In this document: one piece after another, positions 2,814-33,267 of the stretch
Numbering within the stretch: position 1 is the stretch's first letter
How the letters are laid out: each line of letters opens with the position of its first letter
Source: Micromonospora sp. M71_S20
GTDB lineage: Bacteria; Actinomycetota; Actinomycetes; Mycobacteriales; Micromonosporaceae
Length of the DNA stretch: 64,000 nucleotides
Assembly (NCBI RefSeq): GCF_003664255.1
Contig: NZ_RCCV01000003.1
Location: 186,001-250,000 of the forward strand
Reading direction: 5' to 3'
Notes under the pieces: model-generated
What the model was told of the DNA's origin: nothing
Seen by the model: the letters and a program-made list of their open reading frames with translations, nothing else
Database searches by the model: none
Translations under genes and position numbers: made by a program

Positions 2814-4097
2814 TCAGCGGGGGGTCAGGCGGTCGGTGCCCAGGCGGGCCTGGAGGACCTCGGGAACCAGCACCGAGCCGTCGGGCTGCTGGAACTGCTC
2901 CAGGATGGCCGGGAAGAGCCGGCTGGTGGCCAGCGCCGACCCGTTGAGGGTGTGCACGAAGCGGGTCTGCTTGCCGCCCGGCTCGCGGTAGCGGATGGCC
3001 GCCCGGCGCGCCTGGTAGTCGCCGGCCCAGGAGACCGACGACACCTCCTTGTACTTGCCGGTGCTCGGCATCCACACCTCGATGTCGAGGGTCTTCTTCA
3101 TCGACGCGCTGGCGTCGCCCGCCGACAGCAGGGTGCGCTGGTAGTGCAGGCCCAGCTTCTCCACCAGGCTCTCCGCGTGCAGGAGCATCTCCTCCAGCGC
3201 GGCGTCGGCCTGCTCGGGCAGGCAGAACTGGAAGATCTCCACCTTGTTGAACTGGTGGCCCCGGACGGTGCCCCGCTCGTCCGAGTGTGACCCGGCCGCC
3301 TCGCGGCGGTAGCAGGGGGTGTACGCGAACGCCTTCAGCGGCAGCTTCGCTGTCTCCAGGATCTCGTCCTGGTAGGCCCCGAGGATCGCCGTCTCCGAGG
3401 TGGGCAGCAGGAACTGGCCGCGCGGGGCGGACTCCCGGTCCAGGTGGTAGACGTCGTCGTAGAACTTCGGGAACTGCCCGGCGGCGAACCCGGCGGTGTC
3501 CAGCAGCAGGTGCGGCGGGAGCAGGAACTCGTAACCGGCGCCGATGTGCTCGTCGACGAAGAAGTTGAGCAGCGCCCACTCCAGCCGGGCGCCCATGCCC
3601 GTGTACATCCAGAAGCCGGAGCCGCCGAGCTTGACCCCGCGCTCGTGGTCGACCAGGCCCAGCATCCGGCTCAGCTCGACGTGGTCGCGGACCTTATCGA
3701 TGGCCGGCGGCTCGCCGAAGGCCCGGACGACCCGGTTGGCCTCCTTGCCGCCCGGCAGCACGTCGTCGGCGGGCAGGTTGGGCAGCTCGCTCATCACGGT
3801 GCGCAGCCGCGCCTGTACCTCGTCCAGCTCGGACTCCAGCTCGGCGAGCTGCTTGCGCCCCGCCTCCGGCGCGGAGACCTCCGGCTCGGTGCCGGCGCGC
3901 TTCGCCGCCGCGTAGGCGCGGGCCTCGGCCTTGCGGCGCTGCCGCTCGCCGTCGATGCCACTGATCAGGGCGCGGCGTTCCTGGTCGAGCCGCTGGATCT
4001 CGTCCAGGGCGCGGTTGACCTCGGCGGGATCCAGTCGCTTCGCCAGCGCGGTCGCCACCGCCTCGCGATCCTTCCGGATCAACTCCATGTCGAGCAT
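2814..4097 (-). CDS. serS: Seryl-tRNA synthetase
   Basis: 427 residues, the usual length for bacterial SerRS. It charges tRNA-Ser (and the tRNA used for selenocysteine where present). The N-terminal ~110 residues are the long antiparallel coiled-coil arm (Glu/Arg/Leu-rich, ALDEIQRLDQERRALI). The class II catalytic core follows, with TSETAILGAYQDEIL, the motif 2 region CYRREAAGSHSDERGTVRGHQF and the motif 3 region NGSALATSRLFPAILEQ. ATG at 4097 is used; an in-frame ATG nine bases downstream is an alternative. Monocistronic, facing the NuoF-like gene across a shared terminator. Confidence 0.97.
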   Translation of the reverse strand: MLDMELIRKDREAVATALAKRLDPAEVNRALDEIQRLDQERRALISGIDGERQRRKAEARAYAAAKRAGTEPEVSAPEAGRKQLAELESELDEVQARLRTVMSELPNLPADDVLPGGKEANRVVRAFGEPPAIDKVRDHVELSRMLGLVDHERGVKLGGSGFWMYTGMGARLEWALLNFFVDEHIGAGYEFLLPPHLLLDTAGFAAGQFPKFYDDVYHLDRESAPRGQFLLPTSETAILGAYQDEILETAKLPLKAFAYTPCYRREAAGSHSDERGTVRGHQFNKVEIFQFCLPEQADAALEEMLLHAESLVEKLGLHYQRTLLSAGDASASMKKTLDIEVWMPSTGKYKEVSSVSWAGDYQARRAAIRYREPGGKQTRFVHTLNGSALATSRLFPAILEQFQQPDGSVLVPEVLQARLGTDRLTPR

Positions 4098-4231: not shown

Positions 4232-5320
4232 TCAGAGCCGGATGGGCATCAGGACGGAGAACGCGTCGACGTCGTCCGGCCGGCGCACGGCCAGCGGGGT
4301 GATCGGCCCGTCCAGCTCCAGCAGCAACTGGCCCCGGCCGGCCGCGTCGAGGGCCTCGAGCAGGTAGCCGCCGTTCACCCCGACGCGGAACGCGTCGGCC
4401 TCCCCGGTCAGCTCGTCCGCCCCGAGCAGCCGCACCCCGCCCCGGCCGTCCGGGCCGAGCACGGTCACCGCGAGCGGGGCGCCGTCGTGCCGCCGGATGA
4501 CGACGGGGGCGTCGGCGCTGGTCAGGGCCGCCCGCAGGGCGTCGGCGTCGACCGTCAGCCGGTGCGCCGGCCCGTCGTCGGGCGTCGGGCGGAGCAGCCG
4601 GCGGTGGTCCGGGAAGTCGTACGGCAGGGCGGCGGCGTCGACCGTGCGGCCGGCGACGCAGACGGAGATCGTGCCGGCGTCGACCGTCAGCCGGGCCTCG
4701 GGGGTGCTCCCCGCGCCCGTGTCGAGCAGGGCCCGCACCTCGTCGACGAAGGCGACCGGGGCGAGCACCCGCACCGCCGGCCCGTCGACCCGGGCGTCCG
4801 CCCGCGCGACGGCGAGCCGGTGCCGGTCGGTCGCCACCAGCCGTACGCCGTCGGCGTCGGACTCGAACAGCACGCCGGCCAGCACCGGCAGGTCGGGATC
4901 GGCGCCGACGGCGAAGCGGACCGCGTCCACGGCGGCGGCCAGGTCGACGCGGGACAGGACGAGACGGGTGGTCGTGGCGGGCTCGCCGGGATCGATAAGC
5001 GTGCGGATCCGGGAGAGCTCCCGGCGGGCGTCGGCGAGACCGTCCTCCAACCGGCGCAGGTGCGCGTCGAGCAGGCGGTGGACCTGCGCCGGCTCGGCGC
5101 GCAGCGCGGCGGCGATCTCGGCGACCGGCATGCCGACCCGGCGCAGCCCGGCCACCAGCCGGGCGGGCGCCACCTGGTCGCCCGTGTACCAGCGGTAGCC
5201 GGTCACTGGGTCGACCAGGGCCGGGGCCAGCACCCCGGCCGAGTCGTAGAACCGCAGGGCGCTCACGGTCAACCCGCTGGCCCGGGCCAGCTCGCCGATG
5301 CTGCGCAGGTCGCTCTCCAC
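4232..5320 (-). CDS. MerR-type regulator fused to DNA sliding-clamp (DnaN-like) domains
   Basis: 362 residues from a GTG start. Residues 6-75 are a MerR winged helix (RSIGELARASGLTVSALRFY, then GYRWY and LRRVGMPVAEI), followed by the usual dimerisation coiled coil to ~110. Residues ~118-362 resemble domains 2 and 3 of the DNA polymerase III beta clamp: LPVLAGVLFESDADGVRLVATDRHRLAV (144-171, clamp form: RPVLTGVLLE..LVATDGHRLA), then DFPDHRRLLRPTPDD (235-249), VNGGYLLEAL and the C-terminal LMPIRL, which closely matches the DnaN terminus MPVRL. Clamp domain 1 is absent. MerR output domains normally bind small ligands or metals, so the clamp fold may be the sensor or may bring the regulator to replication/repair partners. 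Autoregulation is suggested by a MerR-type promoter directly upstream. Domain call strong; function unknown. Confidence 0.85.
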   Translation of the reverse strand: MESDLRSIGELARASGLTVSALRFYDSAGVLAPALVDPVTGYRWYTGDQVAPARLVAGLRRVGMPVAEIAAALRAEPAQVHRLLDAHLRRLEDGLADARRELSRIRTLIDPGEPATTTRLVLSRVDLAAAVDAVRFAVGADPDLPVLAGVLFESDADGVRLVATDRHRLAVARADARVDGPAVRVLAPVAFVDEVRALLDTGAGSTPEARLTVDAGTISVCVAGRTVDAAALPYDFPDHRRLLRPTPDDGPAHRLTVDADALRAALTSADAPVVIRRHDGAPLAVTVLGPDGRGGVRLLGADELTGEADAFRVGVNGGYLLEALDAAGRGQLLLELDGPITPLAVRRPDDVDAFSVLMPIRL

Positions 5321-5327
5321 GGCGCCG

Positions 5328-5358
5328 ATCCTGTCGTCTCAACCTGGTCGAGGGTCAA
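5328..5358 (-). promoter_or_regulatory. MerR-type promoter of the MerR-clamp gene
   Basis: On the minus strand: -35 TTGACC (5358-5353), a 19-bp spacer (5352-5334) holding the dyad CTCGACCaGGTTGAG, and -10 CAGGAT (5333-5328). A 19-bp spacer with an operator inside is the hallmark of promoters that MerR proteins activate by untwisting. The -10 ends 7 nt before the GTG, so the transcript is probably leaderless. Confidence 0.65.
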
Positions 5359-5390: not shown

Positions 5391-6572
5391 TCAGCGCGGC
5401 GCGTCCAGCACCCGGAACGTCATCCCCGCCCGCACCAGCCGGTCCAGCAGCGCGTCGCCCATCGCGGTCACCGGCGTGACCTGACCGGCGGTGGCCGGCA
5501 GGTCGTCGCCGGCCAGGCAGAGCGCCGACTCGGCGAGCATCTTCGCCGTCTCGTCGTAGCCGGGGTCGCCGCCGGCCACCTCGGTCAGCACCCGCCGCCC
5601 GCCGCCCGTGCCGACGAACCGGACCCGGAACCAGGACTTCGCCCGCTGCTGCGACGTCGGCCCCTGCCCGGAGGCGAGCCGGCCGAGCAGCCAGCGCCGG
5701 GTCGGCGGCAGCTTCACCAGGGCCACCAGCCCGCCCAGCCCGACCCCGCCGGCCAGCACCGTGGGCAGCCGCTTCACGGCCGCGAAGTGCCGGTAGCGGA
5801 AGTCCGGCCCGTACTCCGGGCGGGCGGCGGCCGAGCGGCGGACCACCTGCGGGTCGATGGTCGGCAGCGGCACGATCCACATGCCCAACTCCTTCGCGCG
5901 GGCGACCCGGCCGGGCACCGCGCGGACCCGCCGTCCGGTCGGTCGCGGCTCGACCTGCCGCCGCTCGCGGGCCGCCCGGGACGCCTGCGCCGTGCGGGAG
6001 AAGGCGGTGAGCGCCGAGTGGTACGTGCCGGCGGAGAACCGCCCGCCCGCCCGGACGAACCCGTCGACGGCGACCGGCACGTCGTCCGGGAGGTGCTTGA
6101 GCGTGAACCAGACGCCCAGGTCGTGGGGGATCGAGTCGAACCCGCAGGCGTGCACGAGCCGCGCCCCGGTGCGCTCCGCCTCGGCGTGGTGGCGCACGTA
6201 CATCAGGTCGACGAACTCGGGCTCGCCGGTGATGTCGAGGTAGTCGGTGCCGGCGCGGGCGCAGGCGGCGACCAGCGGCTCCCCGTGGTGCACGTACGGG
6301 CCGACGGTGGTGGCCACCACCCGGGCGCTCTCGGCGACCGCCCGCAGCGACTCCGCGTCGGTGACGTCGGCGGTGAGCAGGGGCAGCGCGGCCAGCGCCG
6401 GGTCGATGGCGGCCAGTCGGTCCCGGACGGCGGCCAGCTTGCCGGGGTTGCGCCCCGCGAGCGCCCACCGCAGCCCGGGCGGGGCGTTGCGGGCCAGGTA
6501 CTCGGCAGTCAGCCCTCCGGTGAAGCCGGTGGCCCCGAAGAGGACGACGTCGTATGTCCGCTGCTCACGCAT
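5391..6572 (-). CDS. Saccharopine dehydrogenase-like NAD(P)-binding oxidoreductase
   Basis: 393 residues from ATG 6572; the frame is open further upstream, but the Rossmann motif VVLFGATGFTGGLTAEYLA begins only nine residues after this Met. It belongs to the saccharopine dehydrogenase-like / trans-acting enoyl reductase family, as shown by the TGEPEFVDLM and HACGFDSIPHDLGVW motifs, which recur in the actinobacterial members acting on lipids or polyketides (for example the mycobacterial trans-acting enoyl reductases). A hydrophobic stretch near 280-300 (VLAGGVGLGGLVALV) may associate with the membrane. No polyketide synthase is nearby, so the substrate is unknown. Stand-alone gene between the two MerR fusion genes. 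Confidence 0.85.
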   Translation of the reverse strand: MREQRTYDVVLFGATGFTGGLTAEYLARNAPPGLRWALAGRNPGKLAAVRDRLAAIDPALAALPLLTADVTDAESLRAVAESARVVATTVGPYVHHGEPLVAACARAGTDYLDITGEPEFVDLMYVRHHAEAERTGARLVHACGFDSIPHDLGVWFTLKHLPDDVPVAVDGFVRAGGRFSAGTYHSALTAFSRTAQASRAARERRQVEPRPTGRRVRAVPGRVARAKELGMWIVPLPTIDPQVVRRSAAARPEYGPDFRYRHFAAVKRLPTVLAGGVGLGGLVALVKLPPTRRWLLGRLASGQGPTSQQRAKSWFRVRFVGTGGGRRVLTEVAGGDPGYDETAKMLAESALCLAGDDLPATAGQVTPVTAMGDALLDRLVRAGMTFRVLDAPR

Positions 6573-6724: not shown

Positions 6725-6767
6725 GGTGCGTGCCGGTCGCTGTGATCGGCACGAGGAGGATGTCGAC

Positions 6768-7835
6768 GTGGGGCTGCTGACCATCGGGGCGTTCGCCCGG
6801 GCGGCGAGACTGACACCGAAGGCGTTGCGCCTGTATGACCAGGTCGGGATCCTGCCGCCGGCCGCGGTCGATCCCGAGTCCGGATACCGGCTCTACGACC
6901 CGGGGCAGCTGCCGCTGGCCCGGCTGGTCGCCCAGCTACGTCGCCTTGGCATGCCACTGGCGAAGATCCGCACCGTGTGTGGCTTGGAGCCCGCGGCGGC
7001 GGCTGAGGCGATCACCGCGTACTGGCAGGAGGTCACCGCCGATACCGCGGCTCGCGCGCGGCTCGCCACCTTCCTCGTGGATCACCTGTCAGGAGGGGGC
7101 ACCACCATGGTTCAAGCGAATCCCGCCCTTGTCGTCCGCTACGCCGCCGGGTGTGACACCGGGGCCGTGCGCGACAGCAACGAGGACGCCGCGTACGCCA
7201 GCGAGCGGTTGCTGGCCGTCGCCGACGGCATGCGAGGGCCTGGCGGCGCCGCAGCCAGCACGGCCGCCATCGACGCTCTCAAAGCGTTGGAACTCGCCGA
7301 CGTGCCGGCCGCCGACCTGCTGACGATGCTGGCCGGTGCGGTCGACGACGCCGACCGCACCGTGCGCGCGCTGGCGACCGACGACCACCAGCCGGTCACG
7401 ACGCTGACCGCGCTGCTGCGCAGCGGCTCCCAGTTGGCCCTGGTGCACATCGGCGACACCCGGGCATACCTGCTGCGCGGCGGCGAACTGTTTCTGCTCA
7501 CCCAGGACCACACCTGGGTGCAGACCCAGGTGGATCAAGGCAAGCTCGACCGGGACCAGGCTGCCGCGCATCCCGAGCGCGCTCTGCTGGTGCGTGCCCT
7601 CGGCGGCGGCCAGCAGGTCGAGGCCGATCTCGCGCTACGCACCGCCCTGCCCGGTGACCGGTATCTGCTGTGCTCCGACGGGCTGTCTGCCGTCGTCGAC
7701 CGGGCCACCCTGCAGTCGGCACTCAGCGCCGCCACCGATCCCGCGCTCACCGTGCAGAGACTGATCGATCTGGCGCAGGCCGAAGGGGCGCCGGACAATA
7801 TCGCCTGCGTCATCGCCGACATCGCTGCGGTGTAG
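6768..7835 (+). CDS. MerR-type DNA-binding domain fused to PP2C protein phosphatase
   Basis: 355 residues from GTG 6768, chosen because GAGGAGGA lies 7 nt upstream and the MerR domain starts at once. Residues 4-72 are a MerR winged helix (LTIGAFARAARLTPKALRLY, GYRLY, LRRLGMPLAKI). A short linker leads to a PP2C Ser/Thr phosphatase (~122-355) with all metal-binding signatures: VRDSNEDA (134-141), ADGM (152-155), HIGDTRAYLL (228-236), CSDGL (302-306) and APDNIACV (341-348). The DGxGG motif reads DGMRGPGG, a small departure. Metal ligands D140, D153, D304 and D343 are present, so activity is plausible. Bacterial PP2Cs usually oppose Ser/Thr kinases; none is nearby. The fusion suggests a transcription factor whose output responds to, or performs, dephosphorylation. 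Confidence 0.88.
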   Translation: MGLLTIGAFARAARLTPKALRLYDQVGILPPAAVDPESGYRLYDPGQLPLARLVAQLRRLGMPLAKIRTVCGLEPAAAAEAITAYWQEVTADTAARARLATFLVDHLSGGGTTMVQANPALVVRYAAGCDTGAVRDSNEDAAYASERLLAVADGMRGPGGAAASTAAIDALKALELADVPAADLLTMLAGAVDDADRTVRALATDDHQPVTTLTALLRSGSQLALVHIGDTRAYLLRGGELFLLTQDHTWVQTQVDQGKLDRDQAAAHPERALLVRALGGGQQVEADLALRTALPGDRYLLCSDGLSAVVDRATLQSALSAATDPALTVQRLIDLAQAEGAPDNIACVIADIAAV

Positions 7836-33236: not shown

Positions 33237-33267
33237 AGCCTCCTGCCTCCAGCCGCTGGAGAGTCAA
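33237..33267 (-). promoter_or_regulatory. MerR-type promoter of the third MerR gene
   Basis: -35 TTGACT (33267-33262), 19-bp spacer containing the perfect dyad CTCCAGCgGCTGGAG (33261-33247), and a weak -10 GAGGCT (33242-33237) ending 7 nt before GTG 33229. The -10 overlaps AGGAGG, so initiation may be leaderless or start slightly upstream. Confidence 0.55.

Follow-up and report, generated by a model that had tools for sequence, protein, structure and literature searches.

A MerR-family regulator of Micromonospora with sliding-clamp domains in its effector half and predicted operators at its own gene, at exporter genes and in the dnaA–dnaN interval

The 64,000-nt window that we analysed belongs in its entirety to Micromonospora sp. 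M71_S20 (NZ_RCCV01000003.1, positions 186,001-250,000) and carries a reverse-strand gene that encodes a MerR DNA-binding domain followed by domains 2 and 3 of the DnaN (beta) sliding clamp (Table 1). The N-terminus of the protein scored 47.7 bits against the Pfam MerR_1 profile (cut-off 21.6 bits), and the PDB sequence matches of this half were EcmrR and an entry named 'Multidrug-efflux transporter 1 regulator', which we take to be BmrR. An AlphaFold prediction of the monomer places a 33-residue helix after the DNA-binding domain, and by analogy with the MerR family this helix may serve in dimerisation. Residues 1-114 are accounted for by the MerR domain and the helix, the rest aligns with clamp domains 2 and 3 only, and clamp domain 1 is absent. 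The score against the DnaN equivalog profile TIGR00663 was 70.8 bits, below the cut-off of 137.65 bits, and an ordinary dnaN is also present in the genome that carries the fusion. The initial annotation had proposed a MerR domain joined to clamp domains 2 and 3, and the Pfam and TIGR profiles, the PDB sequence matches, the AlphaFold model and the alignment confirm it; both the fusion and the clamp fold of the effector half are evident from the sequence or the model. A sequencing artefact, or a clamp part that exists as a separate gene in relatives, is ruled out by the occurrence of the same fusion in dozens of assemblies.

Table 1. Features of the fusion locus (positions are those of the 64,000-nt window).
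Feature	Position	Strand	Remarks
MerR–clamp fusion gene	4232..5320	-	362 aa, GTG start
MerR winged-helix DNA-binding domain, residues 7-75	5096..5302	-	Pfam MerR_1 E 1.7e-12
Long helix, residues 77-109, at the position of the MerR dimerisation coil	4994..5092	-	AlphaFold secondary structure
Clamp domain 2, residues 117-243, approximate limits	4592..4972	-	
Pocket loop T-D-R-H-R-L, residues 164-169 (beta 172-177)	4814..4831	-	
Clamp domain 3, residues 253-362, approximate limits	4235..4564	-	lacks E. coli beta residues 271-273
Pocket C-terminus M-P-I-R, residues 358-361 (beta 362-365)	4238..4249	-	
MerR-type promoter: TTGACC 5358-5353, 19-bp spacer, CAGGAT 5333-5328	5328..5358	-	inferred from sequence
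Operator dyad CTCGACC-A-GGTTGAG	5338..5352	.	
serS, next gene downstream	2814..4097	-	Pfam Seryl_tRNA_N, tRNA-synt_2b
Saccharopine-dehydrogenase-like oxidoreductase gene, upstream on the same strand	5391..6572	-	

Matches over both halves of the protein were found in all 19 Micromonospora genomes sampled, including one in which the match lies in two pieces (G006) and one in which the fusion is just 38% identical (G015) and was placed afterwards in a second subfamily, B. The family sample gave a match at E ≤ 1e-30 in 113 of 200 genomes, that of G090 covering the MerR part only, and in the class sample at least 29 of 394 genomes had a match to both halves among the matches listed, with two exceptions in form (G242 without the first 33 positions, and G431 split). 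No fusion was found outside the class in a phylum sample of 198 genomes, where four outside matches correspond to the clamp part alone and look like ordinary DnaN; our scan of genome contigs from all phyla detects close relatives of the fusion only. A phage or viral origin was also considered and rejected, as the viral contigs yielded no relative (31 pattern matches, 0 confirmed). In seven of 40 matching plasmid records a copy spans 80% or more of the query sequence, and thus the fusion can sit on plasmids; all seven are from Streptomyces, Embleya or Kitasatospora, and in the three whose annotation was inspected the product is called 'MerR family transcriptional regulator'.

The fusions fall into two subfamilies, of which the window protein belongs to A. 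An initial split by score gave 102 A and 22 B rows; the tree then moved three rows (L026, L177 and L179) to B and identity moved one (L148) to A, for a final split of 100 A and 24 B. These 124 rows are related and not independent of one another, and one of them (L148) is a fragment. The tree was built from clamp domains 2 and 3, leaving out the MerR halves, for 58 rows (22 A, 18 B and 18 DnaN), and in it a single branch sets A (100/99), B (100/98) and DnaN (91/98) each apart from the remaining rows, the DnaN support of 91 falling under the mark of 95 set for the tree tool. This topology fits a single old fusion event without demonstrating one.

Neighbouring genes were called with our own gene finder, which was checked on the window. 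serS lies downstream of the fusion in 19/19 Micromonospora loci and the oxidoreductase gene upstream in 18/19, both as neighbours of the fusion only, and none of the neighbours (serS, the oxidoreductase and an alcohol dehydrogenase) is biosynthetic. A LysE-type translocator gene adjoins 22 of the 27 Actinoplanes and Asanoa fusions, Pfam LysE having been checked for one of these proteins. Subfamily A has no operon partner that is kept across lineages, and nothing was common to more than four of the 21 other loci. The window also contains a second MerR fusion close by, at 6726-7835 on the forward strand, whose partner domain is a phosphatase of the PP2C type (Pfam PP2C_2, 4.7e-7).

Subfamily B differs in having a TPR-like gene as the next gene on the same strand in 18/23 loci, or 19/24 with L179 included, at a median gap of 18.5 nt. 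A homologue of this gene carries the A operator described below in Micromonospora and two other genera, and in one genome (G386, L161:6452-8053, reverse strand) a single open frame of 533 residues runs through the MerR domain, domains 2 and 3 of the clamp and the TPR-like protein. The same TPR-like partner is therefore tied to the regulator in three ways: by operon in B, by operator in A and by fusion in G386. The TPR profile matches of the partner protein are weak.

The effector half was compared with the clamp itself in an alignment of 124 distinct fusion rows, 28 DnaN rows from actinobacteria and E. coli beta. All 124 fusions lack the segment equivalent to E. coli beta residues 271-273, which includes the ring-contact residues I272 and L273, and all 28 DnaN rows align over it; passages of PMC3022782 describe the I272A/L273A change as making E. 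coli beta monomeric. The ring-closing dimer interface at these two residues is thus missing from the fusions. The initial annotation had also suggested that the regulator might join the replicative clamp or form a dimer ring, and such a ring with the real clamp is disfavoured by the absence of domain 1 together with the deletion of this domain-3 interface segment.

The clamp-binding-motif pocket has fared differently from the ring contact. Taking the 18 pocket positions compared from the residue list in PMC11139829, we found a mean conservation of 0.83 in the pocket and 0.62 elsewhere for the 100 A rows (p 3.5e-5), and of 0.73 and 0.59 for the 24 B rows (p 0.013); these counts, redone with the final 100 A/24 B rows, left unchanged the result obtained with the first split by score (0.82/0.61 for A and 0.70/0.58 for B). 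DnaN itself follows the same trend (0.87 in the pocket and 0.70 in the rest), and pocket conservation in the fusions may therefore be partly structural. The majority residue is that of DnaN at 12/18 pocket positions and 46/226 other positions in A, and at 10/18 and 49/226, respectively, in B. At beta positions 172, 174 and 176 the residues T, R and R are found in 99, 98 and 99 of the 100 A rows and in 24, 24 and 23 of the 24 B rows, the equivalents of M362 and P363 occur in 124/124 fusion rows, and those of T172, R176, P242, M362 and P363 each reach at least 94% in A and in B. Subsite II (N320, Y323, R365) is represented per 100 A rows by N in 94, F or Y in 100 and R in 91, so that A keeps subsites I and II; B keeps the core of subsite I and has diverged in subsite II, and B may accordingly bind something else. 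The residues of the window protein are those expected of a clamp-binding-motif pocket. The alignment thus documents a clamp pocket of above-average conservation, in which the general partner site, also the antibiotic site, appears to be retained. Griselimycin and mycoplanecin A occupy this same clamp pocket, according to sections of PMC10817943 and PMC5694481.

The predicted promoter of the fusion gene has the layout of MerR-regulated promoters, a dyad within a long (19-20 bp) spacer: the operator dyad lies inside the 19-bp spacer between the -35 and -10 hexamers. The GTG start codon at position 5320 is 7 nt from the -10-like hexamer CAGGAT, and the message is probably leaderless. A pattern of the form TTGACC–CTCGACCnGGTCGAG–nnnn–CAGGAT is found directly 5′ of the A fusions, and a TTGACCTTCAAGTTGGTTGAAG-like version followed by a -10-like hexamer is found 5′ of the B fusions. 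Allowing at most two mismatches to the A or B pattern, such a promoter was present at 87/90 loci (66/66 A loci and 21/24 B loci, L179 being placed in B as in the tree), compared with 0/1800 mononucleotide-shuffled upstream regions, and on this pattern the fusion is predicted to be autoregulated. One near-perfect promoter of the fusion type was also seen in a genome in which the fusion gene itself was not seen (G335, of a genus, g81, taken as Streptomyces; L366, site 1501, reverse strand), and it is perhaps the remnant of a lost fusion gene.

The A operator occurs four times in the genome of M71_S20 with at most one mismatch: upstream of the fusion, of an MFS transporter gene (17 nt from the ATG of the transporter) and of a TPR-like gene, and in the dnaA–dnaN interval. 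When two mismatches were allowed there were 14 sites, a count no higher than the 16 obtained for the control, and we therefore took the ten two-mismatch sites as chance occurrences. An operator-like site of this two-mismatch grade, which is at chance level genome-wide, precedes a separate MerR-family gene (299 aa) within the window (33247-33267, reverse strand). Across 41 Micromonospora genomes there were 114 A-operator sites compared with 14 for the reversed control pattern. We assigned 110 of these, 92 by reading the downstream genes and 18 by coordinates (15 self and 3 dnaN); two sites that had been classed apart at first were counted as dnaN by position, an assignment that was confirmed for L291, and for L329 via locus L412 of its genome. 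Six gene classes account for 103 of the 110 assigned sites, and seven sites fit none, four of them lying inside genes. Counted by genome (n=41), the operator was found at the fusion in 39, at MFS-1 in 21, in the dnaN interval in 18, at the TPR-like gene in 14, at MFS-3 in 7 and at a YunG-type gene in 4.

The proteins behind these class names were sampled with Pfam. The one protein run from each of the MFS-1 and MFS-3 groups matches MFS_1; the four YunG sites were put together from the site and the reading frame, Pfam was applied to L263 and to L370 of the Asanoa type, and one protein of the YunG group matches PF24585. Operators at the MFS-1 and MFS-3 genes point to putative control of exporters by the fusion, and the set as a whole constitutes a predicted regulon. 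In two Asanoa-type genomes (g30) an operator precedes a small gene that is followed by a gene for a DAO-family FAD oxidoreductase (Pfam on L370); at L370:1539-2843 (forward strand) the order is operator, leaderless YunG gene and this oxidoreductase, possibly a D-amino-acid oxidase. A wider regulon in Streptomyces was considered and set aside, the self-site being the sole close match in Streptomyces with fusion A: a search of ten genomes with a 24-mer and three mismatches allowed gave 22 matches, seven of which are self-sites with 0-1 mismatch, while the other 15 carry 2-3 mismatches, against 8 for the control.

The site in the dnaA–dnaN interval was searched for separately with a matrix made from 24 self-promoters alone, and it was found upstream of dnaN in 15/18 Micromonospora with fusion A at matrix scores of 26.7-48.0; among the exceptions, G008 has a weak site without a -35 hexamer, and no site stands at this place in G012 or G013. 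It was not found in either of the two Micromonospora that lack fusion A, namely G015, a carrier of a B fusion, and G207, where no fusion was found. Within about 1.1 kb, it was found in 0/13 other Micromonosporaceae with fusion A and in 0/5 Streptomyces (three with and two without fusion A), and the link to dnaN is therefore a trait of Micromonospora. Similarity among the loci is higher in the operator columns (0.81) than in the preceding 60 nt (0.64), but not higher than in the oriC sequence past the operator (0.77 over the next 60 nt and 0.87 beyond). In the genome of M71_S20 the site has the dnaA terminator on one side and the DnaA boxes on the other, and it lies 657-683 nt upstream of dnaN in 23 of the 26 loci measured. 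Because of this position at the dnaA edge of oriC and this distance from dnaN, it may act on oriC instead of dnaN, and from its placement it could act on dnaN, oriC or both. A real small leaderless gene behind the promoter was considered and rejected, since the frames vary in length and cross the DnaA boxes. Genome G008 also encodes a second full-length DnaN (L245:1608-2741, reverse strand) amid small unnamed genes resembling a mobile element, and no operator was found at this gene. Passages of PMC5694481, and also of PMC10421592, describe mycobacterial griselimycin resistance through amplification of the dnaN–ori region, so a higher dose of dnaN is a known defence.

In this arrangement, operators at the fusion, the real clamp gene and exporter genes suggest sensing of molecules that attack the clamp. 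A MerR-family dimer bound at its operator activates transcription by twisting an over-long spacer once the effector domain is occupied, and known drug-sensing members of the family control an exporter as well as themselves. We consider it reasonably probable that the fusion is an autoregulated MerR activator in which a domesticated clamp pocket serves as a target mimic, sensing clamp-directed compounds and raising efflux and clamp. Its effector would be a domesticated copy of clamp domains 2 and 3 that has kept the partner and antibiotic pocket and lost the ring-forming parts. We infer both the ligand and the activation: a clamp-pocket compound, such as a griselimycin- or mycoplanecin-type peptide (the mycoplanecin producer is presumably an Actinoplanes) or a kindred metabolite, would also be caught by the decoy pocket, its binding would switch the DNA-bound MerR dimer to the activating form, and the activated dimer would fire the 19-bp-spacer promoters. 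The output would be more regulator and more exporter, and in Micromonospora also more of the real clamp, amounting to a net defence by efflux and target overproduction. The fuller version, in which the decoy traps antibiotics directed at the clamp, exporter and new clamp are made from a promoter at the dnaA edge of oriC, and occupation of the pocket is thereby coupled to the supply of clamp and perhaps to initiation, we hold tentatively and with slightly more doubt than belief. The interpretation given in the initial annotation stands in part. Its suggestion that the clamp fold may have turned into a sensor of a ligand or protein is supported by the better conserved pocket between domains 2 and 3, by the loss of the ring contact throughout and by a predicted regulon with MFS genes and, in Micromonospora, the dnaN interval; the idea of a ring or of joining the clamp is disfavoured. 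Points against the sensor are that dnaN sites occur in one genus only, that the self-site is the only close match in Streptomyces, that subsite II has diverged in B and that the pocket conservation may be partly structural.

The main rival is competition with the clamp, which the initial annotation had also raised, for clamp-binding peptides. The retained pocket is the general partner site, and the decoy could be filled by proteins with a clamp-binding motif (polymerases, repair proteins), so that an excess of partners over free clamps would occupy the regulator and turn dnaN on with no antibiotic involved. The frequency of the dnaN-region site among Micromonospora with fusion A agrees with such an endogenous gauge of clamp supply, but exporters, whose sites are no rarer than those of dnaN, are hard to account for under it; the restriction of the dnaN site to Micromonospora and the divergence of subsite II in B also tell against it, and we regard it as unlikely. 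The exporter, YunG and TPR targets, the LysE-type gene adjoining Actinoplanes and Asanoa fusions and the lack of a dnaN site found outside Micromonospora would suit a general MerR drug or metabolite regulator in which the clamp fold is a scaffold, the ligand is unrelated to the clamp and dnaN is no real target, its nearby site acting on oriC or lying idle. Such a regulator would leave the upkeep of clamp-pocket residues in both subfamilies unexplained and would make a coincidence of the clamp-gene interval being among at most four sites in many genomes, and we think it rather improbable. The position between the dnaA terminator and the DnaA boxes, and the lack of the site in both Micromonospora without fusion A, speak for control of replication initiation, with a regulator at the dnaA-side edge of oriC that sends transcription across oriC or impedes DnaA and thereby tunes initiation to clamp status; this would not explain the MFS, TPR and YunG sites, and with the site confined to Micromonospora we give it very little credence. 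We retain the sensor of clamp-directed compounds as the preferred reading.

The fusion resembles several known systems and differs from each of them. BmrR, TipA and EcmrR are MerR multidrug regulators with which it shares an N-terminal MerR domain, a predicted autoregulated long-spacer promoter and an exporter among the predicted targets; it differs from them in that the effector is a piece of sliding clamp and not a drug-binding domain, and in the site in the dnaN region. It has in common with DnaN (TIGR00663) the fold of domains 2 and 3 and the clamp-binding-motif pocket, but domain 1 and the ring-contact segment are gone, a MerR domain is attached and the score is below the dnaN cut-off. 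BlaR1 and MecR1 are likewise sensors derived from an antibiotic's own target, although they signal by a membrane protease and belong to unrelated protein families. The self-resistance clamps GriR and MypR offer a parallel as second clamp-pocket proteins in actinomycetes; passages of PMC10817943 describe MypR as an additional DnaN whose gene accompanies the biosynthetic cluster, and griR likewise, whereas the fusion is a transcription regulator, is not a full-length second DnaN and has non-biosynthetic neighbours. MerR regulators and clamps are each known, but no MerR–clamp protein appeared among the titles and abstract openings listed in a search of the open-access literature, and a clamp-derived effector with an exporter and dnaN regulon was likewise not found in the literature searched.

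If the preferred reading is true, a part of the replication machine has been turned into a transcription sensor, with a kept pocket and a lost ring as its signature, and there would be a direct link from occupancy of the clamp pocket to dnaN expression. Given the predicted operator and targets, a single purified protein and a single reporter would be enough to test the idea. The fusion would then be a ready-made detector of antibiotics that bind the clamp, which attract interest at present (griselimycins, mycoplanecins), and the species that carry it would be reporters for clamp-binding natural products that are largely unexplored.
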